Source: an uncultured Bacteroidales bacterium (GTDB lineage: Bacteria > Bacteroidota > Bacteroidia > Bacteroidales > UBA11471). Taken from it: a DNA stretch of 64,000 nt. Position numbers and translations under genes: made by a program. Within the stretch, counting starts at the first letter, position 1. Each line of letters begins with the position of its first letter. Positions 19,681 to 33,713 of this stretch are shown here, piece after piece. The notes beneath the pieces are model-generated. The model worked only from the letters and a program-made list of their open reading frames with translations. It was not told the DNA's origin and did not search any database. The stretch is from the NCBI GenBank assembly GCA_947593515.1, contig CANQDQ010000001.1, positions 248,001 to 312,000 on the forward strand. Direction: 5' to 3'.

Positions 19681-19711
19681 AAATTTATGCAACGAAAAAG
19701 ATAGAAGCATT

Positions 19712-20944
19712 ATGGCATTAGTAAACGAACAATTTTTGAAGCTCACCGAAAGCTACCTTTTCACGGAGATAGCACGGAAAGTGAACGCTTATAAAATCAT
19801 ACACCCCGAAGCCCGCATCATACGATTGGGTATCGGCGACGTAACCCGTCCGCTGCCGCCGACCGTCATCGCCGCCCTGCACAAAGCCGTCGATGAAATG
19901 GGCGATGCAGCCACTTTTCACGGATATGGTCCCGAACAGGGTTACCGGTTTCTCATCGACGCCATCATCAAACACGACTTCGAAGCGCGCGGCGTACACA
20001 TCGACCCGACGGAAGTGTTCATCAGCGACGGCGCCAAAAGCGACACGGGAAACATCGGCGACATATTGAGCAAAGAAAACCGCGTGGCAATAACCGACCC
20101 CGTGTATCCCGTTTACGTTGATACCAACGTGATGGGCTGCCGCGCCGGAAACCTGCTGCCCGACGGACGGTGGAGCGACATCGCCTACATACCGTGCTGC
20201 GCCGAAAACAAATTCATTCCGGAGCTGCCGAAAGAGACTCCCGACATCATTTACCTCTGCTACCCCAACAACCCGACAGGAACGACTCTCACCAAAAAAG
20301 AGCTGAAAAAGTGGGTCGATTACGCGTTGAAAAACGACGTGTTGATTCTTTTCGACGCCGCCTACGAAGCCTTCATCAGCGAAAGCGACGTGCCGCACAG
20401 CATATACGAAATACGGGGCGCCAAACAAGTTGCCATCGAGTTTCGCAGCTTCTCGAAAACGGCGGGATTCACCGGACTGCGCTGCGGCTACACGATCGTA
20501 CCCAAAGAGCTGCGGGCATTCCGCCTCAACGGCGAGCGTGCCGACCTCAACCGCTTGTGGAACCGCCGGCAAAGCACGAAATTCAACGGCACCGCCTACA
20601 TCGTGCAACGGGCGGCAGAATCGATATACACCCCGCAAGGGCAGAAAGAGATACGCGCCAACATCGCCTATTATATGGAGAATGCCCGCATCATACGCGA
20701 GGGGCTTGCCTCAGCCGGACTCGAAGTGTATGGCGGTGTCAACGCCCCCTACATCTGGTTGAAGACGCCCGGCGGCATCGACTCGTGGAAATTCTTCGAC
20801 AGGCTGCTTTACGAATGCCACGTCGTGGGTACGCCCGGCGTAGGATTCGGTCCGGGCGGAGAAGGCTATCTGCGACTGACGGCGTTCGGCGAACGCAGCG
20901 AAGTCGAAGAAGCCGTGGAACGAATAAAAAATTGGAAGATATAA
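19712..20944 (+). CDS. dapL: LL-diaminopimelate aminotransferase
   Basis: The start at [17 protein letters not shown] is the usual DapL N-terminus. The 410-residue fold-type I PLP enzyme shows the Schiff-base Lys in [17 protein letters not shown], the substrate-loop GDVTRPLPP and [10 protein letters not shown]. DapL converts tetrahydrodipicolinate straight to LL-diaminopimelate, bypassing the acylated DapD/C/E intermediates. Its product is the substrate of DapF encoded just upstream. Three GGTAAAAA repeats follow the stop codon (20949-20977), and the leader of the nitrogen operon begins about 40 bp later. Confidence 0.95.
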
Positions 20945-20948
20945 TATA

Positions 20949-20977
20949 GGTAAAAAGGTAAAAAGTTTAGGTAAAAA
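20949..20977 (+). repeat. three GGTAAAAA direct repeats
   Basis: GGTAAAAA occurs at 20949, 20957 and 20970, immediately after dapL. Function is unknown. It may be a low-complexity artefact of A-rich initiation regions or a binding site for a regulator of the nitrogen operon downstream. I found no TAnnTTTG promoter box in 20945-21006. Confidence 0.4.
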
Positions 20978-20986
20978 AGATTGGTT

Positions 20987-21070
20987 ATGAAAACGAAAGA
21001 GGATTGCTTTTTTAAGTATTTGAATACACAGAGCCCCTTCGCGGGGACAACAGAGAGAACTATCGGATAA
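20987..21070 (+). CDS. candidate 27-codon leader ORF upstream of the nitrogen operon
   Basis: ATG at 20987 opens a 27-residue frame (beginning MKTKEDCFFKYLNTQSPFAG, ending ERTIG) that stops at 21068-21070. Its codons cover the 5' arm of the long leader helix and the first internal hairpin, so translation would melt both. No Gln, Asn or Glu run that would suggest classical attenuation is present. Whether it is translated cannot be told from sequence; the initiation region is the A-rich GGTAAAAAAGATTGGTT. Confidence 0.3.
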   Translation: MKTKEDCFFKYLNTQSPFAGTTERTIG

Positions 21071-21137
21071 TCAAGTGCCGCAGCGGCACCTTATCACAAA
21101 CAGGTTTTCAAACAGGATATTCAAATACATAAAAAAG
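21007..21137 (+). promoter_or_regulatory. folded leader RNA of the nitrogen-assimilation operon
   Basis: A long helix closes this segment. 21016-21026 (GTATTTGAATA) pairs perfectly with 21118-21128 (TATTCAAATAC), and after one A/A mismatch 21007-21014 pairs with 21130-21137, giving 19 base pairs. Inside are hairpin CCCC(34-37)/GGGG(43-46) with a TTCGC loop, and hairpin 21066-21095 (GATAA, then GTGCCG-CAG-CGGCAC, then TTATC). The 3' arm ends 6 nt before the start codon at 21144 and contains the purine-rich initiation region, so folding should block translation. It does not match a riboswitch class I know. A miniature inverted-repeat element is the alternative reading. Confidence 0.6.
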
Positions 21138-21143
21138 AGAATC

Positions 21144-21896
21144 ATGAAAGCAAAAACAATTTCATTAACGCTTATGGCATCGCTGCTGCTCGGTATGGCA
21201 AACGCAAAAGCCGAAGACATAACCCTGAATGCGGACAAAGGCTTTACCCTTTCGGTGGGAGCCGACCTCGTAAGTTCCTATGTATGGCGCGGCACCTATC
21301 AGACGGGAGCGAGCATTCAACCCTATCTGTCGTTCGACGCCGCCGGCTTTTCGGTAGGCGTATGGGGCAGCACCTCATTTGCCGGACTGGTCGATGCGCC
21401 CAAAGAGTTCGACCTCTCGGTTTCCTATGCGATAAAAGGATTTTCGATAGGGCTTACCGATTATTGGTGGACCGGCGAGGGCAATGCCTATTTCAGCGCA
21501 TGGAAAAAAGAGAAAGGCGAAACCGGAAACTGCCACTACCTCGAAGCCTCCGCCGGCTACGACTTCGGCGAGAGCTGCTCATTCCCGCTGACGATAGGGT
21601 GGAACACGGTGGTATATTGTCCGTTCGACAAAAACGATTCCGGCAAACAGCATTTCTCGACCTACATCGACTTGGATTACGGCTTCGACATCAAGGGAGT
21701 CGTCGATTGCAGCGTAGGCTTGGGCATCACCCCGTGGAAAGGTATGTATGCAAGCAGTTTCAATGTAATGGACATCTCGGCGAAAGTGGCGAAAACGTTC
21801 ACCCTTTTCAAAAACTTCGGCACGACGCTGTCGGTCGAAGCCATCTTCTCCCCTGCCAACGACGATGTATTCTTGGTATTCGGAGTTTCGTTCTAA
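21144..21896 (+). CDS. exported beta-barrel protein of the PII/amtB operon
   Basis: The 250-residue protein has a signal peptide (MKAKTISLTLMASLLLGMANA) and a body of alternating amphipathic strands ending in Phe (VFLVFGVSF), as outer-membrane barrels do. Early motifs LSVGADLVSSYVWRG and SIQPYLSFDAAGFSVGVWGS resemble the TorF-like putative porin family. It is the first gene of the nitrogen operon, 28 bp ahead of the PII gene, so a role in outer-membrane passage of ammonium or another nitrogen source is attractive but unproved. Confidence 0.7.
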   Translation: MKAKTISLTLMASLLLGMANAKAEDITLNADKGFTLSVGADLVSSYVWRGTYQTGASIQPYLSFDAAGFSVGVWGSTSFAGLVDAPKEFDLSVSYAIKGFSIGLTDYWWTGEGNAYFSAWKKEKGETGNCHYLEASAGYDFGESCSFPLTIGWNTVVYCPFDKNDSGKQHFSTYIDLDYGFDIKGVVDCSVGLGITPWKGMYASSFNVMDISAKVAKTFTLFKNFGTTLSVEAIFSPANDDVFLVFGVSF

Positions 21897-21924: not shown

Positions 21925-22281
21925 ATGAAAAAGATTGAAGCAATTATCCGCAAGACAAAATTCGAAGACGTGAAAGATGCTCTGCTCGCAGCCGACATCG
22001 AGTGGTTTTCGTACTACGATGTACGGGGTGTGGGCAAAGCCCGTCAGGGGCGCATCTACCGCGGTGTGGTCTATGACACGAGCTATATCGAGCGCACGAT
22101 GATTTCCATCGTGGTGCGCGACAAAAATGTGGAAAAGACGGTGCAAGCCATCATGAAAGCCGCCTACACGGGCGAGATAGGCGACGGACGCATTTTTATC
22201 GTTCCTATCGAAGACGCAGTGCGCATACGTACTGCCGACCGAGGCGACATCGCCCTCTACAACGCGGAACAAGAGAAATAA
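21925..22281 (+). CDS. glnK: PII nitrogen regulatory protein (GlnB/GlnK family)
   Basis: The 118-residue protein has the PII fold: MKKIEAIIRKTKFEDVKDAL at the N-terminus, a T-loop (KARQGRIYRGVVYDTSYIE) with Tyr at or near the canonical modification position, and the C-terminal signature TGEIGDGRIFIVPIEDAVRI that binds ATP/ADP and 2-oxoglutarate. PII proteins report carbon/nitrogen status and gate AmtB; the adjacent amtB gene (39 bp downstream) is the expected partner. The T-loop sequence departs from the enterobacterial form, so uridylylation should not be assumed. Confidence 0.94.
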   Translation: MKKIEAIIRKTKFEDVKDALLAADIEWFSYYDVRGVGKARQGRIYRGVVYDTSYIERTMISIVVRDKNVEKTVQAIMKAAYTGEIGDGRIFIVPIEDAVRIRTADRGDIALYNAEQEK

Positions 22282-22320: not shown

Positions 22321-23694
22321 ATGAAAAAAATAGGTATGTTCATCGTTTTGATGACGATTACGCTCTTTACTTCGGGAGCCTCCGCACAAGAAGAGGCGGT
22401 CGCCGCTGCGGAAGAAACGGTGGCTGCACCGATGTCGATTGCCGAGCTGGCAACGTCGCTCGACGTGGTGTGGATGCTGCTCGCCGCCATGTTGGTGTTT
22501 TTCATGCAACCCGGATTCGCCTTGGTGGAAGCCGGCTTCACCCGCACGAAAAACACGGCGAACATTTTGATGAAAAACTTTATCGACTTCATGCTCGGTT
22601 CGCTGCTGTACTGGCTTATCGGATTCAGCCTGATGTTCGGCATCGGAGCTTTCGTGGGTATGCCCCACTTCTTCGACTTGGCGAAGATGGAGGAAATCAT
22701 CGACAACGGTCTGCCCATCGAGGGATTCCTCATTTTCCAGACCGTATTCTGCGCCACCTCCGCCACGATTGTTTCGGGAGCTATGGCAGAGCGCACCAAA
22801 TTTTCGATGTACCTGATTTACACCGTATGCATCAGCGTGTTGATTTATCCCGTTTCCGGACACTGGACGTGGGGCGGAGGCTGGCTGATGAACGGCGATG
22901 AAGGGAGCTTCATGATGAGCACTTTCGGCATCACGTTCCACGACTTCGCCGGTTCCACCGTCGTACACTTGGTAGGCGGCGCCATCGCTTTCGTGGGGGC
23001 AGCCATTCTCGGACCCCGTCTCGGCAAATACAAAGAGGGCAAGTCGCACGCCATACCCGGACACAACCTCACGCTCGGCGCACTCGGCGTGTTCATTCTC
23101 TGGTTCGGGTGGTTCGGATTCAACCCAGGTTCGCAGCTGGCAGCTTCGGGCGAAGGCAACTACACCGCCATTTCGCACGTGTTCTTGACAACCAATCTGG
23201 CAGCCTGCGCCGGCGGATTCGCCTCGTTGGTTACCAGCTGGATAAAATACGGCAAACCCTCCCTGTCGCTGACGCTTAACGGCATCTTGGCAGGATTGGT
23301 GGGCATCACGGCAGGATGCGACCTCGTATCGCCGGGCGGCGCCGTAATCATCGGCATCATTTGCGGCGTCGTGATGATACTCGCCGTCGATTTTATCGAC
23401 CACGTACTCAAAATCGACGACCCTGTGGGCGCATCGTCGGTACACGGCGTATGCGGATTTCTCGGCACGATTCTCACCGGTCTTTTCTGCACGACGAACG
23501 GTCTTTTCTACTGCGGAAGCTGGAATTTCTTCCTTGCCCAGCTATTCGGCTCGGTCGTCGTAGGAGCTTGGGCTGCCGGCATGGGATTCGTCATCTTCAA
23601 GGTTCTCGACCTCATTCACGGTCTGCGCGTTCCCAAACGCATCGAAGAAGAGGGACTCGACATCTACGAACACGGCGAATCGGCTTACAACTGA
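22321..23694 (+). CDS. amtB: ammonium transporter AmtB
   Basis: The 457-residue protein starts with a cleavable signal, then eleven helices of the Amt/Rh fold. FMQPGFALVEAGFTRTKNTA, TFHDFAGSTVVHLVGG (pore His) and ASSVHGVCGFLGTIL (second pore His) are diagnostic. It conducts ammonium across the inner membrane and is blocked by PII when nitrogen is plentiful; PII is encoded just upstream. It is followed by a stable intercistronic stem-loop before glnN. Confidence 0.96.
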   Translation: MKKIGMFIVLMTITLFTSGASAQEEAVAAAEETVAAPMSIAELATSLDVVWMLLAAMLVFFMQPGFALVEAGFTRTKNTANILMKNFIDFMLGSLLYWLIGFSLMFGIGAFVGMPHFFDLAKMEEIIDNGLPIEGFLIFQTVFCATSATIVSGAMAERTKFSMYLIYTVCISVLIYPVSGHWTWGGGWLMNGDEGSFMMSTFGITFHDFAGSTVVHLVGGAIAFVGAAILGPRLGKYKEGKSHAIPGHNLTLGALGVFILWFGWFGFNPGSQLAASGEGNYTAISHVFLTTNLAACAGGFASLVTSWIKYGKPSLSLTLNGILAGLVGITAGCDLVSPGGAVIIGIICGVVMILAVDFIDHVLKIDDPVGASSVHGVCGFLGTILTGLFCTTNGLFYCGSWNFFLAQLFGSVVVGAWAAGMGFVIFKVLDLIHGLRVPKRIEEEGLDIYEHGESAYN

Positions 23695-23769: not shown

Positions 23770-25956
23770 ATGAGTACACTTAGATTCAAATTGCTGGACG
23801 AGGCTTTCAAACGCAAAGCCGTCGTACTCGAACCGGAAGAAAAACGTCCGTCGGAATTTTTCGGCGAACACGTTTTCAACCGCGCCGCCATGGCGAAGTA
23901 TCTTTCCAAAAGGACTTACAATGCCATCATCGACGCCATCGACAACGGCACGCCGTTGAGCCGCGAATATGCCGACGGCGTGGCTACCGGCATGAAACAA
24001 TGGGCTATGGAACAGGGCGCGACCCACTATACCCACTGGTTCCAACCTCTTACGGGCGGCACCGCCGAAAAACACGACTCGTTCATCGAGTTTGAAAAAG
24101 GCGCCGTCATCGAGGAGTTTTCCGGTAAAATCCTTATCCAACAGGAGCCGGACGCATCGAGCTTCCCGAGCGGCGGAATCCGCAACACGTTCGAGGCTCG
24201 CGGATATTCGGCATGGGACCCCTCGTCGCCCGCATTCGTGGTAGGCGACACCCTCTGCATTCCCACCGTGTTCATCTCCTACACCGGCGAAGCGCTCGAC
24301 TACAAGACCCCGCTGCTGAAAGCCATCTCCGCCATGAGCGAAGCTGCCGTGAAAGTATGCCATTTCTTCGACGAAAACGTAACCAAAGTATTCTCCTATC
24401 TCGGTTGGGAACAGGAATACTTCTTGGTCGATGAAGCTCTATATGCCGCCCGTCCCGACCTCGTACTCACCGGTCGCACCCTCATGGGACACGACAGCGC
24501 GAAAAACCAGCAGCTCGAAGACCACTATTTCGGCTCCATTCCCACCCGCGTGCTCGCGTTCATGTCCGACCTCGAAAGAGAGTGCCTGAAACTCGGCATT
24601 CCCGTGAAAACCCGCCACAACGAAGTGGCTCCCAACCAGTTCGAGGTGGCTCCCATTTTCGAGGAAACCAACTTGGCAAACGACCATAACCTCCTGCTCA
24701 TGTCGCTGATGAAAAAAGTGGCCCGCCGCCACAACTTCCGCGTGCTTCTGCACGAAAAGCCTTTCAAAGGCATCAACGGTTCGGGTAAACACAACAACTG
24801 GTCGATGGGCACCAATACCGGCGTAAACCTGCTCGCTCCGGGCAAGAACGGCATGGAAAACCTGCAATTCGTTACCTTCCTCGTAAACGTGCTCATGGCG
24901 GTTTACAAACACAACGACCTGCTGAAAGCCTCTATCTGTTCGGCTACCAATGCCCACCGTCTGGGTGCGAACGAGGCTCCTCCCGCCATCGTTTCAGTAT
25001 TTCTCGGAAAACAGATTTCGGAAGTGCTCGACAAGCTCGAATCGGCAACGACCGATGAAGCTATCAAGATGGACCCGAAAGCCGGCATCAAAATCGGCGT
25101 AGCCCATATTCCCGAAATATTCATCGACAACACCGACCGCAACCGCACGTCGCCCTTCGCCTTCACGGGCAACCGCTTCGAGTTCCGTGCCGTCGGCTCG
25201 TCGGCAAACTGCGGCGCCGCCATGATCGTGCTCAACACCGCCGTAGCCGCCCAGCTCAACGACTTCTACGCCGAAGTCGAAAGCCTCATCGCAGCGGGCA
25301 CACAAAAAGAAAAAGCTATCTTCACCGTGATACGCAAATTGATAAAAGAGTGCAAAGCCATACGTTTCGACGGCAACGGTTACAGCGACGAATGGAAAGC
25401 CGAAGCCGCCCGCCGCGGTCTCGACTGCGAAACGAGCGTGCCTCTGAATTTCGATGCCTACCTGCGTCCCAAGAATGTAAAAATCTTCACCGACACGAAG
25501 GTAATGAGCGAAGTGGAATTGCAGTCGCGCTGCGAGGTGAAATGGGAAACCTACACCAAAAAGATACAAATCGAAGCCCGCGTACTCGGCGATTTGGCAA
25601 TGAACCACATCGTGCCCGTAGCCTCGCGCTACCAGTCGATACTGCTCGACAACATCGCCAAATTCAACGCCCTCTTCCCCGCCGATGAAGCCAAAACGCT
25701 TTCGGAGGAAGATACGAAGGTAGTACGCAAAGTATCGAAACATATCTCTACGGTAATCACCAAAGTCGATGCGCTGGTCGATGCCCGCAAAGTGGCGAAC
25801 AAAATCACCGACGAGCGCGAGAAAGCCATTGCCTACCACGACACGGTGGTGCCCTTGATGGACGAGATACGCTACCACATCGACAAACTCGAACTTATCG
25901 TCGATAATGAGATGTGGCCTCTCCCCAAATACAGAGAACTGTTATTCATTCGTTAA
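23770..25956 (+). CDS. glnN: type III glutamine synthetase
   Basis: The 728-residue length, the N-terminal FGEHVFNRAAMAKYLSK segment, the YLGWEQEYFLVDEALYAARP and VAPNQFEVAPIFEETNLA active-site stretches and FTGNRFEFRAVGSSANCGAA identify GSIII, the dodecameric glutamine synthetase typical of Bacteroidales. It makes glutamine from glutamate, ammonia and ATP in the cytoplasm. It lies between amtB and gltB, so ammonium uptake and GS-GOGAT assimilation are coupled in one transcription unit. Confidence 0.97.
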   Translation: MSTLRFKLLDEAFKRKAVVLEPEEKRPSEFFGEHVFNRAAMAKYLSKRTYNAIIDAIDNGTPLSREYADGVATGMKQWAMEQGATHYTHWFQPLTGGTAEKHDSFIEFEKGAVIEEFSGKILIQQEPDASSFPSGGIRNTFEARGYSAWDPSSPAFVVGDTLCIPTVFISYTGEALDYKTPLLKAISAMSEAAVKVCHFFDENVTKVFSYLGWEQEYFLVDEALYAARPDLVLTGRTLMGHDSAKNQQLEDHYFGSIPTRVLAFMSDLERECLKLGIPVKTRHNEVAPNQFEVAPIFEETNLANDHNLLLMSLMKKVARRHNFRVLLHEKPFKGINGSGKHNNWSMGTNTGVNLLAPGKNGMENLQFVTFLVNVLMAVYKHNDLLKASICSATNAHRLGANEAPPAIVSVFLGKQISEVLDKLESATTDEAIKMDPKAGIKIGVAHIPEIFIDNTDRNRTSPFAFTGNRFEFRAVGSSANCGAAMIVLNTAVAAQLNDFYAEVESLIAAGTQKEKAIFTVIRKLIKECKAIRFDGNGYSDEWKAEAARRGLDCETSVPLNFDAYLRPKNVKIFTDTKVMSEVELQSRCEVKWETYTKKIQIEARVLGDLAMNHIVPVASRYQSILLDNIAKFNALFPADEAKTLSEEDTKVVRKVSKHISTVITKVDALVDARKVANKITDEREKAIAYHDTVVPLMDEIRYHIDKLELIVDNEMWPLPKYRELLFIR

Positions 25957-26062: not shown

Positions 26063-26081
26063 ATCATGCAACAAAGTAAAA
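26063..26081 (+). repeat. 19-nt repeat at the gltB start (copy 1)
   Basis: The sequence ATCATGCAACAAAGTAAAA spans the gltB start codon (26066). An identical copy lies at 30580-30598, between gltB and gltD. Confidence 0.7.
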
Positions 26082-29000
26082 GATTACAAGAACAAGGTCT
26101 GTACAGCCCCGATTACGAACACGACGCCTGCGGTGTCGGTCTGCTGGTGAACATTCACGGCGGCAAGTCGCATCAAATCGTCGAAAACGCTTTGCAGGTA
26201 CTCGAACACATGAATCACCGCGGGGCGGAAGGCGCCGACCCCAAAACGGGCGACGGCGCGGGCATCATGGTGCAGATTCCGCACGAGTTCATTCTCCTGC
26301 AAGGAATCCCCGTGCCCGAAAAAGGTCATTACGGTACAGGACTTGTCTTTCTCCCCAAAGAGAGTGCCGACCAAGAAGCCCTCATCGCTATCATAGAAAG
26401 CGAAATTTCCGGCGCCGGACTGCAACTGCTCACCATACGCGACGTGCCGGTGAACAGCGAAATACTCGGCGAAGGCTCGGCAGCCACCGAACCCGCCATA
26501 AAGCAGCTTTTCATCACCGCCCCGAACGAAATGGACGAAACGGCACTGAGCCGCGCCCTGTACGTTCTGCGCAAAAAAATAGAGGCGAAAGTGCTGCACT
26601 CGGACATCGCCTTGAAAAAAGATTTCTACATCGTTTCGCTGTCGAACCGGAACCTTGTATATAAAGGTATGCTTACGTCGCTGCAACTGCGCTACTACTA
26701 CCTCGACCTGATAAATCCCTACTTCACCAGCGGCATGGCGCTGGTACACTCGCGTTTCAGTACCAACACGTTCCCCACGTGGAGTCTGGCGCAGCCGTTC
26801 CGCCTGCTGGGACACAACGGCGAAATAAATACCATACGGGGCAACCGCAAATGGATGGAGGCGCGCGAAAGCGTGCTGCAACCCGATGCGCTCGGCGTAG
26901 GCATCGACGCGCTGAAACCTATCGTGCAACCCGAAATGAGCGACAGCGCATCGTTAGACAACGTACTCGAATTTTTCATGATGTCGGGCATGAGCCTGCC
27001 TCATGTACTCTCCATGATGATTCCCGAAAGTTTCAACGAGAAAAACCCCATTTCCGAGAATCTGAAAGCGTTTTACGAATACCACAGTATTCTCATGGAG
27101 CCGTGGGACGGTCCCGCCACACTGCTCTTTTCCGACGGTCGCTACGCCGGCGGTATGCTCGACCGCAACGGTCTGCGCCCTGCCCGCTACCTCATCACGC
27201 AAAACGATATGATGGTCATTGCTTCGGAGGCGGGCGTTCTGCCGTTCGACGGCGCCGACATCAAAGAAAAAGGACGTCTGCAACCCGGCAAACTAATTCT
27301 CATCGACACCGAGAAAGGTAAAATCTACCGCGACGAAGAACTGAAAGAGCTATTAGCTTCGGCATACCCCTATCGGGAGTGGCTCTCCAAAAACCGCGTG
27401 AAACTCGACACCATCAGCTCGGGGCGCACCGTGCGCTACGACGTGCCCGACTATGCGGCACACCTGCATACGTTCGGCTACCACAAAGAAGATGTGGAGC
27501 GCATCATCATACCCATGACCACCGAAAGCAAAGAGCCTATCGCCTCTATGGGCAACGACACGCCGCTGGCGCTCTTTTCGCAGAAACCGCAGCTACTGTT
27601 CCACTACTTCCGGCAACAGTTCGCGCAGGTAACCAACCCGCCTATCGACCCCATTCGCGAAGAGTTGGTGATGTCGCTCGGCAACTACATCGGTGTCATC
27701 AACAAAAACCTGCTGGTGCAGTCGCCGGAGCTGTGCAAGATGGTCAATATCAAATCACCCGTCATCACCAACGCCGACCTCGATATTCTGCGTAACCTGC
27801 GCTACAAGGGCTTCCGCACCAAAACGCTGTCGATGACGTTCGACCTCAATTCCGGCGCACAAGGGCTGGCAGAGGGTATCGACCGCCTCTGCGCCGAAGC
27901 CGAACAGGCGGTGAAAGCCGACTTCAATTACATCATACTCTCCGACAAGGAAGCTGACGAAACGCAGGTGCCCATACCGTCGCTGCTCGCCGTTTCCGCC
28001 GTACACAATCACCTTATCGCCAAGCGTATGCGTGTGCAGACGGCTATCGTCGTAGAGACCGGCGAGGTGCGCGAAGTGATGCACTTCGCCCTGCTGATAG
28101 GCTACGGCGCCAGCGCGGTAAATCCCTACATGGCTTTTGCCGTCATCAACCAGTTGGTAAACGACAAACAGATACAGCTCGACTACCACACCGCCGAAAA
28201 AAATTACGTGAAAGCGGTGAACAAAGGTTTATTGAAAGTCATTTCCAAAATGGGTATCTCCACGATAGGCAGCTATTGGGGCGCCCAACTGTTCGAGGCT
28301 GTCGGCATTTCACAGGAATTGATAGACCGTTATTTCTGCGGCACGACCTCCAAAATAGGCGGCGTAACGCTCGAAGAGATTTACCGCGACATCGTCAAAT
28401 TCCATGCGGAGGCTTACGTCGACAAAGAGCAGTACCTCAATCACAACGGCATTTACAGCTTCCGCAAAAACGGCGAATTCCACGCATGGAATCCCGAAAC
28501 CATATCGACTCTGCAACTGGCGACCCGTCTGGGCAGCTACAAGAAATTCAAAGAATTTACCGCCATGGTCGATGGCAAGGAGCAGCCGGTATTCCTGCGC
28601 GACCGCCTCGACTTCAAACGCAACCCCATCGATATTTCGCTGGTAGAGCCTGTCGAAGCCATAACGCGCCGTTTCGTAACGGGCGCCATGTCGTTCGGTT
28701 CTATCAGCAAGGAGGCGCACGAAGCTATGGCTATCGCCATGAACAAACTGGGCGGCAAGAGCAACACGGGCGAAGGCGGCGAAGATGCCGAACGCTTCGT
28801 TCCGCGCGAAGACGGTACGTCGGCTCGCAGCGCCATCAAGCAGGTGGCATCGGGACGCTTCGGCGTAACGACCGAATATTTAGTGAATGCCGACGAAATA
28901 CAAATCAAGGTGGCGCAGGGCGCAAAACCCGGAGAAGGCGGACAGCTGCCCGGATTCAAAGTCGATGAAGTGATTGCGCGCACCCGCCACTCCATACCGG

Positions 29001-30580
29001 GCATTTCGCTCATATCGCCTCCCCCGCACCACGACATTTACTCCATCGAAGACTTGGCGCAGCTCATTTTCGATTTGAAAAACGTGAATCCCCGCGCCCG
29101 CATCAGCGTGAAGCTGGTATCGGAGAGCGGCGTGGGCACCATTGCCGCCGGCGTAGCCAAAGCCAAAGCCGACATGATTGTCATCAGCGGCTGCGAAGGC
29201 GGCACGGGAGCAAGTCCCGCCAGCTCGATAAAGCACGCCGGACTGCCGTCGGAAATAGGTCTTTCCGAAACGCAGCAGACGCTCGTACTCAACAACTTGC
29301 GCGGACAGGTAACGCTACAAGTGGACGGACAGCTGAAAACCGGACGCGACATCATCATACAAGCGCTGCTCGGCGCCGAAGAATTCGGATTCGCCACCAG
29401 CGCACTCATCGTCTTGGGATGCGTGATGATGCGCAAATGCCATATGAACACCTGTCCGGTGGGCGTCGCCACACAGAACGCGGAACTGCGCAAACGTTTC
29501 CTCGGTCGGTCGGAATACCTCGTCAATTTCTTCACCTTCCTCGCGCAAGAAGTGCGGGAGTGGCTGGCGGAAATGGGCTTCACCAAAATGGACGACATCA
29601 TCGGCCGCTCCGACCTGCTTTTCCCGAAACCTCCCGTAGGCGACCACACGATAGACAAACTCGACCTTTCGCGCATACTCTACCGTCCGGCAGAGGCTGA
29701 AAAACATGCCTGCCGCAAAATCAAGGAACAGACGCACCAAATCGAAGACGTGATAGACCAGCGGCTGATAAAGGCAGCGCTTCCGTCGCTTAAATCGCTG
29801 ATGCCCATCGAGCTGCATCTGCCGATATGCAACACCGACCGCTCGACGGGCGCCATGCTTTCGGGCGAGATAGCCACGCGCTTCGGAAACGCCGGTCTGC
29901 CCGACGACACGATACGGTGCAACTTCACCGGCTCGGCAGGTCAGAGCTTCGCCGCATTCCTCGCACACGGCGTAACCTTCTGCCTCTCGGGCGAAGCCAA
30001 CGACTATTTGGGCAAAGGTCTCTCGGGCGGCAAAATCATCGTCATTCCGCCGAAAGGCTCGTCGTTTGCTCCCGAAGAAAACATCATCGCCGGCAACACG
30101 CTGCTCTACGGCGCCACGTCGGGCGAAGTCTATATCAACGGCATCGTGGGCGAACGCTTCTGCGTGCGCAACAGCGGCGCGACAGCCGTCGTCGAAGGCG
30201 TGGGCGACCACTGCTGCGAATACATGACAGGCGGTCGCACGGTGGTGCTCGGCAAAGTGGGTCGCAACTTCGCCGCCGGCATGAGCGGCGGTATCGCCTA
30301 CGTGTGGAACAAGAACGACAATTTCGACTTCTTCTGCAACATGGAGATGGTGGAACTTTCGCTCATCGAAGATGCCGCCGACAACAAAGAGCTGCACGAC
30401 CTCATCGCCAACCACTACGAGAACACGCACAGTCCCCTCGCCAAACGTATGCTCGAAAACTGGGACGAATACGTATCGCAATTCATCAAAGTGATGCCTA
30501 TCGAGTACAAGAAAGTGCTGCAAGAAGAGAAAATAAAATCGCTGCAACAGAAAATCGAGAAAGTGGAACGGGACTATTAA
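26066..30580 (+). CDS. gltB: glutamate synthase (GOGAT) large subunit
   Basis: The start is set at MQQSKRLQEQGLYSPDYEHD so that processing exposes the Cys of DACGVGLLVNIHGG as the N-terminal glutaminase nucleophile. The 1504-residue protein then has the central domain, the FMN-binding synthase barrel (ITRRFVTGAMSFGSISKEAH) with 3Fe-4S cysteines in CVMMRKCHMNTCPVGVATQN, and the C-terminal beta-helix domain (GGKIIVIPPKGS). It transfers the amide of glutamine to 2-oxoglutarate. GltD directly downstream supplies electrons from NAD(P)H. Confidence 0.97.
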   Translation: MQQSKRLQEQGLYSPDYEHDACGVGLLVNIHGGKSHQIVENALQVLEHMNHRGAEGADPKTGDGAGIMVQIPHEFILLQGIPVPEKGHYGTGLVFLPKESADQEALIAIIESEISGAGLQLLTIRDVPVNSEILGEGSAATEPAIKQLFITAPNEMDETALSRALYVLRKKIEAKVLHSDIALKKDFYIVSLSNRNLVYKGMLTSLQLRYYYLDLINPYFTSGMALVHSRFSTNTFPTWSLAQPFRLLGHNGEINTIRGNRKWMEARESVLQPDALGVGIDALKPIVQPEMSDSASLDNVLEFFMMSGMSLPHVLSMMIPESFNEKNPISENLKAFYEYHSILMEPWDGPATLLFSDGRYAGGMLDRNGLRPARYLITQNDMMVIASEAGVLPFDGADIKEKGRLQPGKLILIDTEKGKIYRDEELKELLASAYPYREWLSKNRVKLDTISSGRTVRYDVPDYAAHLHTFGYHKEDVERIIIPMTTESKEPIASMGNDTPLALFSQKPQLLFHYFRQQFAQVTNPPIDPIREELVMSLGNYIGVINKNLLVQSPELCKMVNIKSPVITNADLDILRNLRYKGFRTKTLSMTFDLNSGAQGLAEGIDRLCAEAEQAVKADFNYIILSDKEADETQVPIPSLLAVSAVHNHLIAKRMRVQTAIVVETGEVREVMHFALLIGYGASAVNPYMAFAVINQLVNDKQIQLDYHTAEKNYVKAVNKGLLKVISKMGISTIGSYWGAQLFEAVGISQELIDRYFCGTTSKIGGVTLEEIYRDIVKFHAEAYVDKEQYLNHNGIYSFRKNGEFHAWNPETISTLQLATRLGSYKKFKEFTAMVDGKEQPVFLRDRLDFKRNPIDISLVEPVEAITRRFVTGAMSFGSISKEAHEAMAIAMNKLGGKSNTGEGGEDAERFVPREDGTSARSAIKQVASGRFGVTTEYLVNADEIQIKVAQGAKPGEGGQLPGFKVDEVIARTRHSIPGISLISPPPHHDIYSIEDLAQLIFDLKNVNPRARISVKLVSESGVGTIAAGVAKAKADMIVISGCEGGTGASPASSIKHAGLPSEIGLSETQQTLVLNNLRGQVTLQVDGQLKTGRDIIIQALLGAEEFGFATSALIVLGCVMMRKCHMNTCPVGVATQNAELRKRFLGRSEYLVNFFTFLAQEVREWLAEMGFTKMDDIIGRSDLLFPKPPVGDHTIDKLDLSRILYRPAEAEKHACRKIKEQTHQIEDVIDQRLIKAALPSLKSLMPIELHLPICNTDRSTGAMLSGEIATRFGNAGLPDDTIRCNFTGSAGQSFAAFLAHGVTFCLSGEANDYLGKGLSGGKIIVIPPKGSSFAPEENIIAGNTLLYGATSGEVYINGIVGERFCVRNSGATAVVEGVGDHCCEYMTGGRTVVLGKVGRNFAAGMSGGIAYVWNKNDNFDFFCNMEMVELSLIEDAADNKELHDLIANHYENTHSPLAKRMLENWDEYVSQFIKVMPIEYKKVLQEEKIKSLQQKIEKVERDY

Positions 30581-30610: not shown

Positions 30611-32041
30611 ATGGGAAATCCGAAAGCATTTCTTACCATAGGAAGAAAAGAAGCGGGATATCGTCCCGTTCAACAACGAAAAACCGATTTTGCCGAAGTG
30701 GAGCTTACCTTCCACGACGAAGAGTGCCGCACGCAAGCCTCGCGCTGCATGGACTGCGGCGTGCCCTTCTGCCACTGGAACTGCCCGCTGGGCAACCGCC
30801 AGCCCGAATGGCAGGACGCCGTGTATAAAGGGAACTGGCGGGAGGCTTACCGCCTCTTGCAAGAAACCGACGACTTTCCCGAATTTACGGGGCGCGTCTG
30901 TCCGGCGCTCTGCGAAAAAGGGTGCGTGTTAGGTCTTTCGGCAAATGCGCCGGTAACCGTACGCAACAACGAAGCCGCCATTATCGAAAAAGCCTTTTCC
31001 GAAGGGTATGTCGTGGCGTGTCCGCCTCACACCCGCACGGGCAAGAAGGTGGCAGTCATCGGCTCGGGACCGGCAGGGCTCGCCTGCGCCAACCAGCTCA
31101 ACCGCAAGGGGCACACCGTCGAAGTTTTTGAAAAAGACGAACGCATCGGCGGACTACTGCGGCTCGGCATACCCGACTTCAAACTCAACAAAAGCGTCAT
31201 CGACCGCCGTCAGGCACTGCTCGAAACAGAGGGCATCTCTTTCTTCTGCAACGCACCGGTAGGCGCCGACAAGAAGGCATTGAAAAAAATGCTCGACGAA
31301 TACGATGCCGTATGCGTGGCTATCGGGTCGGGCGAGCCGCGCGACCTCCGCGTCGAAGGGCGCGACCTCAAAGGCGTTTACTTCGCGCTCGAACTGTTGA
31401 AACAGCAAAACCGCGTCAATGCCGGCACAGAGGTCGCACCGGAAGAACGCATCTCCGCCAAAGGCAAACGGGTGTTAGTAATCGGCGGCGGCGACACGGG
31501 TTCGGACTGCGTGGGCACCGCCATACGGCAGGGCGCCGCAAGCGTGCTGCAAATAGAAATCATGCCCAAACCGCCGGTCGATAAAAATCCGGCGACACCG
31601 TGGCCGCAATACCCGCAGATACTTAAAACATCGTCGTCGCACCAAGAGGGCTGCGAACGGCGGTGGAGCCTCGACACCGTGCGCTTCATCGGCGAAAACG
31701 GCGTATTGAAACAGGTCGAAGTGGCTCCGGTAACTTGGACGACCGACGAAAACGGCCGCATGACGCCGCAGCGGGCTGCCGAAACCGAAATTCTCGACGT
31801 CGATATGGTGTTCTTGGCAATGGGATTCGTACACCCCGTTTACGAAGGGCTGCTCGAAAATCTCGGCGTTACGCTCGACGGGCGCAAAAACGTGGCTGTC
31901 GACAGCGACAACAAAAGTTCCGTCGCAAAGGTATTCGCCGCCGGCGACGCCTCCTACGGCGCGGGTCTTGTGGTGCGCGCCATCGCTTCGGGGCGCAAAA
32001 CCGCCGCAGCTATCGACCGTTATTTATCGACCTTAAAATAA
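30611..32041 (+). CDS. gltD: glutamate synthase small subunit
   Basis: The 476-residue protein has the [4Fe-4S] cysteine sets of GltD (SRCMDCGVPFCHWNCPLGN and CPALCEKGC), an FAD-binding GSGPAGLACA and an NAD(P)H-binding IGGGDTGSDCVG. It oxidises NAD(P)H and passes electrons to the GltB flavin. It is separated from gltB by 30 bp that include the duplicated initiation sequence and is followed 7 bp later by asnB. The set glnN-gltB-gltD gives a complete GS-GOGAT cycle. Confidence 0.96.
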   Translation: MGNPKAFLTIGRKEAGYRPVQQRKTDFAEVELTFHDEECRTQASRCMDCGVPFCHWNCPLGNRQPEWQDAVYKGNWREAYRLLQETDDFPEFTGRVCPALCEKGCVLGLSANAPVTVRNNEAAIIEKAFSEGYVVACPPHTRTGKKVAVIGSGPAGLACANQLNRKGHTVEVFEKDERIGGLLRLGIPDFKLNKSVIDRRQALLETEGISFFCNAPVGADKKALKKMLDEYDAVCVAIGSGEPRDLRVEGRDLKGVYFALELLKQQNRVNAGTEVAPEERISAKGKRVLVIGGGDTGSDCVGTAIRQGAASVLQIEIMPKPPVDKNPATPWPQYPQILKTSSSHQEGCERRWSLDTVRFIGENGVLKQVEVAPVTWTTDENGRMTPQRAAETEILDVDMVFLAMGFVHPVYEGLLENLGVTLDGRKNVAVDSDNKSSVAKVFAAGDASYGAGLVVRAIASGRKTAAAIDRYLSTLK

Positions 32042-32048
32042 GAAAGCC

Positions 32049-33713
32049 ATGTGCGGAATCGTAGGCATATTCGATATAAAAGAGAATGCGGCGCAACTGC
32101 GTGCGCAGGCATTGGAAATGTCCAAAAAAATCCGTCATCGGGGACCCGACTGGTCGGGCATATACGTGGGGAAATCGGCGATTCTGGCGCATGAGCGCCT
32201 CTCTATCGTCGATCCCGCCTCGGGCGGGCAGCCGCTGAAAAGCCCCGACGGCAAACTGATACTCTCCGTAAACGGCGAAATATACAACCATCGCGACCTG
32301 CGCGAGGGCATCTGCAAGGACTATCCTTTCCGGACGGGTTCCGACTGCGAAGTCATCTTGGCGCTTTACCGGAAAAAGGGCATCGACTTCCTCGAAGACC
32401 TCAACGGTATTTTCGCTTTCGCGCTGTACGATGAAGAAAACGACCGCTACCTCATCGCCCGCGACTCCATAGGCGTGATACCCCTCTATATGGGGCACGA
32501 CAGCGAGGGTCGCACCTATGTGGCATCGGAATTGAAAGCGCTCGAAGGGTGGTGTACCGACTACGCCCCCTTCCTGCCCGGACACTATTACGACAGCCGG
32601 AGCGGCAAAATGGTGCGTTGGTACAAACGCGACTGGGAGCAGTACGACGCCGTGAAAGACAACGGCGCCGACGGCGAGGCGTTACGTGCCGCGCTATGCG
32701 ATGCAGTGCGCCGCCAGCTGATGAGCGACGTGCCCTACGGGGTACTGCTGTCGGGCGGGCTGGACTCGTCTATCGTGTCGGCTGTCGCCAAACAGTATGC
32801 CGCCAAACGCATCGAATCGGACAGCCGCTCCGACGCTTGGTGGCCGCAGCTGCACTCTTTCGCCGTAGGGCTGAAAGGGGCGCCCGACCTCGAAGCCGCC
32901 CGTCAGGTCGCCGCGCACATCGGCACGGTGCATCATGAAATCAACTTCACCATAGAGGAGGGTCTCGACGCCCTGCGCGACGTCATCTATTACATCGAAA
33001 CTTACGATGTAACGACGGTGCGCGCCTCTACGCCGATGTACCTGCTGGCGCGCGTCATCAAGTCGATGGGCATAAAAATGGTGCTCTCGGGCGAAGGCGC
33101 CGACGAGATATTCGGCGGCTACCTCTACTTCCACAAAGCGCCCGACGCGCGGGCGTTCCACGAAGAGTGCGTGCGCAAAATCAGCAAGCTCTACCTCTAC
33201 GACTGCCTGCGTGCCAACAAATCGCTCTCGGCGTGGGGCGTCGAAGGGCGCGTGCCGTTCCTCGACAAAACTTTCATGGACACGGCCATGCGCCTCAACC
33301 CCGAAGCCAAAATGGCGAAAGACGGGAAAATGGAGAAATGGATACTGCGCAAAGCCTTCGAGGACATTTTGCCCGCGAGCGTGGCATGGCGTCAGAAAGA
33401 GCAATTCTCCGACGGTGTGGGGTACAGTTGGATCGACGTACTCAAACAGATTACCTCCGAACGGGTGTCGGACGAAGAAATGGCGCATGCCGCCGAACGC
33501 TTCCCCATCAATCCGCCGATGAACAAAGAGGAGTATTACTACCGCTCCATCTTTGCCGAACACTTCCCCTCCGATGCCGCCGCACGCAGCGTGCCGTCCG
33601 AACGGTCGGTCGCTTGCAGCACCGCCACGGCACTGGAATGGGACGAGTCGTTCAAGAAACTCAACGACCCGTCGGGACGCGCTGTAAAGAGCGTCCATAA
33701 ACAAAGTTATTGA
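32049..33713 (+). CDS. asnB: asparagine synthase, glutamine-hydrolysing
   Basis: The 554-residue protein starts MCGIVGIFDIKE, so the catalytic Cys is exposed once the Met is removed. The glutaminase domain (RHRGPDWSG, SVNGEIYNH) is followed by the synthetase domain with PP-loop LSGGLDSSIVS and SGEGADEIFGGY, then WGVEGRVPFLDK. It makes asparagine from aspartate, glutamine and ATP. As last gene of the nitrogen operon it draws on the glutamine produced by GlnN. A strong terminator starts about 60 bp after the stop. Confidence 0.95.
   Translation: MCGIVGIFDIKENAAQLRAQALEMSKKIRHRGPDWSGIYVGKSAILAHERLSIVDPASGGQPLKSPDGKLILSVNGEIYNHRDLREGICKDYPFRTGSDCEVILALYRKKGIDFLEDLNGIFAFALYDEENDRYLIARDSIGVIPLYMGHDSEGRTYVASELKALEGWCTDYAPFLPGHYYDSRSGKMVRWYKRDWEQYDAVKDNGADGEALRAALCDAVRRQLMSDVPYGVLLSGGLDSSIVSAVAKQYAAKRIESDSRSDAWWPQLHSFAVGLKGAPDLEAARQVAAHIGTVHHEINFTIEEGLDALRDVIYYIETYDVTTVRASTPMYLLARVIKSMGIKMVLSGEGADEIFGGYLYFHKAPDARAFHEECVRKISKLYLYDCLRANKSLSAWGVEGRVPFLDKTFMDTAMRLNPEAKMAKDGKMEKWILRKAFEDILPASVAWRQKEQFSDGVGYSWIDVLKQITSERVSDEEMAHAAERFPINPPMNKEEYYYRSIFAEHFPSDAAARSVPSERSVACSTATALEWDESFKKLNDPSGRAVKSVHKQSY

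Follow-up and report, generated by a model that had tools for sequence, protein, structure and literature searches.

A putative leader-peptide attenuator ahead of a nitrogen-assimilation operon in Bacteroidales

Arrest peptides of the TnaC and SpeFL type carry conserved C-terminal residues, with a proline near the stop codon, and are encoded ahead of operons for a related metabolite. Leader-peptide attenuation has been suggested ahead of amino-acid operons in Flavobacterium (PMC9723704), amino-acid leader-peptide attenuators are described in Actinobacteria (PMC1262725), and the tetQ leader of the Bacteroides element CTnDOT is cited as a translational attenuator (Wang et al. 2005, as cited in PMC5418344). 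Long 5′ UTRs with short ORFs have been noted in B. thetaiotaomicron, with no function given (PMC7366714), and the regulation of nitrogen assimilation in Bacteroidales is poorly understood. Here we analysed a stretch of 64,000 nt from an uncultured member of this order (hereafter, the window), in which a putative leader-peptide ORF (uORF) lies on the forward strand between a dapL-like aminotransferase gene (19709–20944; PF00155) and a nitrogen-assimilation operon on the same strand. The original prediction had listed PII, amtB, glnN, gltBD and asnB in this operon with PII at its head. All of these genes are present, encoding PII (21925–22281; PF00543), the ammonium transporter AmtB (22321–23694; PF00909), glutamine synthetase type III (glnN, 23770–25956; PF12437, PF18318, PF00120), the large and small subunits of glutamate synthase (gltB, 26069–30580; gltD, 30611–32041; both by Pfam) and asparagine synthase (asnB, 32049–33713; PF00733), but the first gene encodes a Gcw_chp/TorF-like outer-membrane protein (21144–21896; PF09694), here called the porin. 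We consider it probable that the leader is an attenuator of this operon, acting at translation initiation in the clade of the window.

As in attenuators of the ermC type (ErmCL, ErmBL), a short leader ORF precedes a masked initiation region that a stalled leader ribosome would open (PMC5418344); the window leader differs in serving nitrogen assimilation rather than antibiotic resistance, in its unrelated peptide, and in that its first uORF arm pairs with the start region itself, with no chain of hairpins in between. The tetQ leader, as far as the citing source presents it, is likewise a translational attenuator from the same bacterial order and is likened here by mechanism; unlike the window leader, it is drug-responsive and carried on a mobile element. 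With TnaC (PMC8429421) and SpeFL the window leader shares a conserved C-terminus that has a proline close to the stop codon, and its place ahead of a related-metabolite operon; in contrast, it has no sequence similarity to them, its arrest and ligand sensing are putative, and its downstream control looks translational. Like the trp and his attenuators and those of Flavobacterium (PMC9723704) and Actinobacteria (PMC1262725), it is a leader ORF ahead of a biosynthetic operon, with Gln and Asn codons that match the operon products; unlike them, it has a single Gln and a single Asn codon with no run, and lacks an intrinsic terminator. Glutamine riboswitches (the glnA and Downstream-peptide motifs) also control nitrogen genes in cis, whereas this leader has a peptide-coding core, no conserved aptamer and no Rfam match even at permissive thresholds, in keeping with the original prediction that it resembled none of them. 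Our literature search found no description of this peptide, and none of a leader-peptide attenuator acting on a glutamine synthetase operon; the motif strings occurred in no paper searched. To our knowledge, no glutamine synthetase operon has been described as controlled in this way. If the proposal holds, the ribosome, and not a two-component system, an sRNA or a riboswitch, would control the operon, and the leaders would form a natural set of variants in which a constant sensor peptide is combined with a changing downstream RNA switch.

The uORF (20987–21070) encodes 27 amino acids followed by TAA (MKTKEDCFFKYLNTQSPFAGTTERTIG) and is preceded by the initiation region AAAAAAGATTGGTT (20973–20986). 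A peptide HMM that includes the window's own peptide matches this single locus in its genome (E 4e-8). In the codon table of 17 uORFs, codons CAG AGC CCC TTC GCG GGG of the window (21029–21046), read as Q-S-P-F-A-G, align with the family consensus Q-N-P-L-x-G, within a longer consensus xLYPRIQNPLxGG that ends at the stop codon. Conservation is limited to these C-terminal residues, the peptides ranging from 15 to 31 aa with a free N-terminus. Gln and Asn are adjacent in most leader peptides, with Gln replaced by Lys in G339 and G398; a run of end-product codons of the trp/his type is absent, there being one Gln codon, and Gln and Asn make up 5.9% and 5.3% of residues over all uORFs. Among three near-identical species the sole change in the uORF is synonymous (E5, GAG to GAA in G005), and the initiation string AAAAAAGATTG(G)TTATG recurs ahead of the uORF in G001, G003 and G006, members of the window's genus, and ahead of the porin ATG in G003 and G006. 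The reading frame is conserved, with synonymous-biased changes and a genus-typical initiation sequence, and in our judgement the ORF very probably encodes a genuine conserved leader peptide.

Including that of the window, we found 18 distinct homologous leader peptides in at least four Bacteroidales families and in termite-gut MAGs. Those running to a stop codon are MRTTKHFFHLYPRIQNPLVGIK (G036), MQNMKRFYQLYPRIQNPLWGIA (G243), MSSSYYYLYPRIQNPLSGDKSKVC (G149), MKKLKLDFQLYPRIKNPYGG (G339), MKKLKLDYQLYPRIKNPFGGLA (G398), MKRFKSDDRLYPRAQNPFGG (G401), MKTKKSHRRQNPFGG (G400), MKITFDFLRICSRKQNPLMGIAG (G047), MKIIFDFLRVCSRKQNPLRGIAD (G418), MSNKLMMTHCQNPLGGK (G396), MNDKLMMTLCQTPCGGK (G273), MKKTALRPVGKKAQIPF (G001), MKTITYHFFCAQNLL (L049) and, from termite MAGs, MKTKIYCLMYSCVQNPLQGGI (L061) and MKKTIYCLMYSCAQNPLQGGI (L063); that of G003 begins MGKANVYLSASRKQNPLARG, and G006 is similar. 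The HMM found one credible place per genome searched, always ahead of nitrogen genes, and a degenerate DNA pattern for YPRIQNP matched exactly once per genome, at the leader, its other matches being mismatch noise. In an order-wide sample of 393 genomes, credible HMM matches fell in four families (f1, f31, f42 and f74), the window's own included; weaker matches (L217–L230) were inspected and discarded as chance. The only two genomes of their genus that were available, G047 and G418, both carry the uORF. A class-wide sample yielded nothing beyond the window's own genome and one chance match, and the PII loci fetched from Bacteroides, Parabacteroides, Prevotella, Alistipes, Draconibacterium and flavobacteria gave no credible HMM match. 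dapL lies upstream of the leader in 12 of 15 loci compared, that is, wherever flanking sequence sufficed for a match, and by eye it was also seen next to the operon in Bacteroides loci that lack the uORF. In G243 the uORF stands ahead of porin–glnN, and in G418 (L245, G418:C3) it directly precedes glnN, the porin and PII genes being absent and amtB reduced to its end; either a deletion that left the leader intact or a join in the MAG assembly would explain this.

The LYPRIQNP codons vary at the DNA level in the six species with this type of peptide (TAT/TAC, CCG/CCC/CCT/CCA, AGA/CGC/CGG/CGA, ATA/ATT/ATC, CAG/CAA and AAT/AAC). Pairwise comparisons among these species contain 0–2 nonsynonymous codons, against about 1–4.5 under random placement of the same substitutions, with per-pair P values from <0.001 to 0.11, most <0.04, for pairs that are not independent. 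Over the whole ORF, constraint was significant in G036/G243 (P 0.002) and G339/G398 (P 0.02), suggestive in G047/G418 (0.10) and absent in G273/G396, L061/L063 and G003/G006, so that significant whole-ORF constraint is missing in four of six sister pairs. By codon comparison, peptide-level constraint is thus shown for part of the leader family.

The original prediction placed a 19-bp helix with one mismatch across this leader, enclosing two hairpins and sequestering the initiation region. The pairing is present in the sequence: 21007–21014 (CTTTTTTA) pairs with 21130–21137 and 21016–21026 (GTATTTGAATA) with 21118–21128, around a single A·A mismatch at 21015/21129. The minimum free energy (MFE) fold of 20990–21160 adds four pairs (GATT 21002–21005 with AATC 21140–21143) that abut the porin ATG at 21144, extending the helix to 23 bp with one A·A mismatch and one small internal loop, and both hairpins appear in the same fold. 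Leader folding energy was −42.6 kcal/mol, whereas 200 dinucleotide shuffles gave −22.9 ± 3.4, none of them as stable (z = −5.77), and the duplex between uORF and start region alone reached −22.3 kcal/mol (z = −5.5). The 5′ arm (21002–21026) is not free UTR; it sits inside the conserved short ORF as codons 6–14, and the 3′ arm (21118–21143) extends over the A-rich porin initiation region as far as the ATG. In a model of the free RNA, the gene start has an unpaired fraction of 0.21 versus 0.60 at the uORF start, which, with the analogous helices in three other lineages described below, supports the predicted sequestration. The leader element is 97% identical in two congeners, and sequence conservation of the outer helix is absent beyond these three species. 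Covariation, which had been proposed as a check, was absent from the exact window helix because the congeners are too similar, a change at 21130 in G005 breaking one pair, and was seen as one exchange in the analogous helix of the termite-gut lineage. Both arms (21016–21027 and 21118–21128) also contain a near-palindrome, TATT-N2-AATA, which is not repeated in related leaders.

Pairing of the uORF (up to the Q codon) with the start region exceeded shuffled expectation in the window (p 0.000), G339 (0.002), L063 (0.004) and L061 (0.05), with p values from 0.07 to 0.97 in the other leaders. In four lineages the own pairing is stronger than every cross-species pairing in both directions, with energies of −22.3 in the window, −18.9 in G047, −14.7/−13.1 in G339/G398 and −16.7/−21.7 in L061/L063; the corresponding permutation p is 0.0018, or 0.018 without the window, values that are somewhat optimistic since the regions compared were chosen once the window helix was known. 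The arms in G047, G339/G398 and L061/L063 are unrelated in sequence to those of the window, and the 5′ arm reaches the Q codon, or stops just short of it, in the window, G047 and L061/L063. The uORFs of L061 and L063 differ at three positions only, one of which is compensated: where the uORF goes from GTT to GCT, the start region goes from AACAC to AGCAC, exchanging a U-A pair for C-G. No such helix was found in G001, G003 and G006 of the window's own genus, nor in G243, G401, G273 and G400, the last an out-of-sample leader that has the peptide; the helix is therefore not a constant partner of the uORF.

Hairpin 1 (CCCC-UUCGC-GGGG, 21034–21037/21043–21046) overlaps the motif codons of the window, and a hairpin occupies these codons in all 12 representative leaders checked. 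Its stem is changed to AUCUCC/GGAGAU in L049 and its loop contains the stop codon in G001, so that it is kept independently of the coding. Hairpin 2 (21055–21109) has a 7-bp base (21055–21061/21103–21109), a 5-bp stem (21066–21070/21091–21095) and a 6-bp tip (21075–21080/21084–21089). Among the three 97%-identical species its z lies between −3.4 and −4.6, and changes there keep the pairing via G-U and G-C pairs; it is weaker in G001 and G003 and absent in G047. Beyond the close species, the stems GATAA/TTATC, GATAG/CTATC, GGCAG/CTGCC and GACAC/GTGTC were read by eye, the arms being too divergent across the genus for MAFFT/RNAalifold, and covariation there is only suggestive. Between uORF and gene, no intrinsic terminator (hairpin plus U-run) was found in the window leader, and terminator-like hairpins with U-runs occur in G149, G273 and G396. 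Comparison across species thus shows the uORF, hairpin 1 and a predicted start-region helix in four lineages.

We modelled a ribosome on the uORF by making the nucleotides up to its leading edge unpairable in constrained folding. With the ribosome at Q, the unpaired fraction of the start region rose from 0.21 to 0.63 in the window, 0.16 to 0.72 in G398, 0.31 to 0.75 in L049 and 0.37 to 0.53 in G047, and with the ribosome at the uORF stop it was 0.53 in the window; a uORF ribosome would therefore open the operon, which would stay open during a pause at Q-N-P. In the mechanism that we propose, a leader without a ribosome would keep the helix closed and translation of the operon low. Pausing at the Q-N-P codons, aided by the hairpin just ahead, a ribosome would cover the inner 11 bp, and the remaining A/U-rich 8 bp would melt, opening the porin–PII–amtB–glnN–gltBD–asnB mRNA. 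Translation of the uORF, pausing, the direction of regulation and its signal are what we infer from these models and comparisons. The pause might be triggered by low charging of tRNA-Gln or tRNA-Asn, or by a nascent peptide that senses a nitrogen metabolite, a weaker part of the proposal. Since glutamine and asparagine are products of the operon (by GlnN and AsnB) and Q and N stand side by side in most of the peptides, low charging of these tRNAs would be the simplest signal. For attenuation based on charging, however, a lone Gln codon would be unusual; this, its replacement by Lys in G339/G398 and the conservation of surrounding residues favour a role of the nascent chain. Other lineages may use the same leader peptide through different downstream structures, perhaps transcription terminators. 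We tentatively suggest, as a possibility that falls well short of probable, that ...LYPRIQNPLxGG is a nitrogen-sensing arrest peptide: by way of the nascent chain and the entry-site hairpin, the translating ribosome would directly sense how much Gln/Asn (or some other nitrogen metabolite) is at hand and so switch the entire operon, with lineages swapping the downstream switch (start-region helix or terminator) and keeping the sensor peptide.

A translating ribosome was only one of the openers named in the original prediction, beside a ligand and a protein, and it is the one that fits, with the 5′ arm encoded just upstream of the most conserved codons of the leader peptide. Constitutive coupling, in which uORF translation merely keeps the start region open by reinitiation or coupling with no regulated pause, would use the same geometry, since with the helix arm inside the uORF any translating ribosome opens the helix; the modelled opening by a ribosome at the stop codon and the argument that reinitiation after leader peptides generally raises expression (PMC4833913) agree with it. 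It leaves the conservation of Q-N-P/LYPRIQNP, and of hairpin 1 at that place, unexplained, and we regard it as fairly improbable. Small proteins that bind PII, AmtB or glutamine synthetase occur in archaea and cyanobacteria. A peptide of ~20 aa that is itself functional in trans, for instance by binding one of these proteins, with the RNA structures only setting its expression, would account for the amino-acid conservation and the first position in the operon, and has precedents in a small protein of Methanosarcina mazei that inhibits ammonium transport (PMC10714827) and in the Sinorhizobium leader peptide peTrpL, which acts in trans (PMC7298713). Against such a function, conservation is confined to the C-terminal residues of peptides with a free N-terminus and variable length (15–31 aa), the 5′ codons also serve as a helix arm in four lineages, and the uORF of G418 outlasts PII and amtB, which therefore are not essential targets; we judge it unlikely.

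A ligand, another of the openers that had been proposed, is not supported. In a riboswitch, the three-way junction would bind glutamine, glutamate, 2-oxoglutarate or ammonium and the outer helix would switch without translation of the peptide; the stable junction, the sequestered start region, the function of the operon and the maintained pairing of hairpin 2 among the three close species are all compatible with it. However, the outer helix is not conserved in sequence and is missing from the same-genus leaders of G001, G003 and G006, what orthologous leaders have in common is the peptide codons and hairpin 1, with no junction and no conserved single-stranded core, and in the window and nine related loci Rfam returned sub-threshold chance matches only, at gathering and permissive thresholds alike. 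The codon-level pattern would also go unexplained, making a riboswitch quite unlikely. Finally, the arms could act as DNA, either as two palindrome copies (TATTTGAATA, spaced by 102 bp) to which a regulator binds or as the terminal repeats of a MITE, the alternative attached to the original prediction. Each arm does contain TATT-N2-AATA, but a genome-wide search for further copies found self-matches only, plus chance matches of 14–25 nt, one arm falls within an ORF and the other in a start region, the repeat is missing from the G001, G003 and G047 leaders, and the arms of G047, G339/G398 and L061/L063 are unrelated in sequence. We consider an operator or mobile-element remnant highly implausible, and a MITE was rejected on its single copy and the syntenic position of the leader in relatives. 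The leader-peptide attenuator remains our preferred reading.

Several observations concern the same locus in relatives. The amtB genes of G003 and G006 (L242, L243) are 34–39% identical to that of the window (22321–23694), while their glnN genes are 94–95% identical, so that one or the other of two amtB types occupies this place in the operon (also in G036, G149, G339 and G398 versus G047, G401 and G273), which suggests gene replacement. In leaders of genus g178 (L159, L231, L232, L148, L233 and L257), the gap between uORF and porin holds a second structured RNA, CCGGACA...AAAARGG, followed by a hairpin and then CGTCCCGCAACCGG. The hairpin has a loop like AAGACCA and covarying stems TTTTTCC/GGAAAAG, TTTAGC/GCGTTAAA, ACTGC/GCGTAGT and TTCGC/GCGACGAA, and consensus folding of this second RNA from five leaders gave two-sided changes in four of ten pairs. 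In Bacteroides leaders without the uORF (L047, L074, L051 and L053), a short hairpin with a T-rich stretch behind it was seen by eye about 40–60 nt ahead of the porin ATG; it reads TGGA-CCGTACA-TCCA or CGGA-CTGATCA-TCCG, with a U-A to C-G exchange in the stem and a similar loop, and may be a separate cis element of the same operon.
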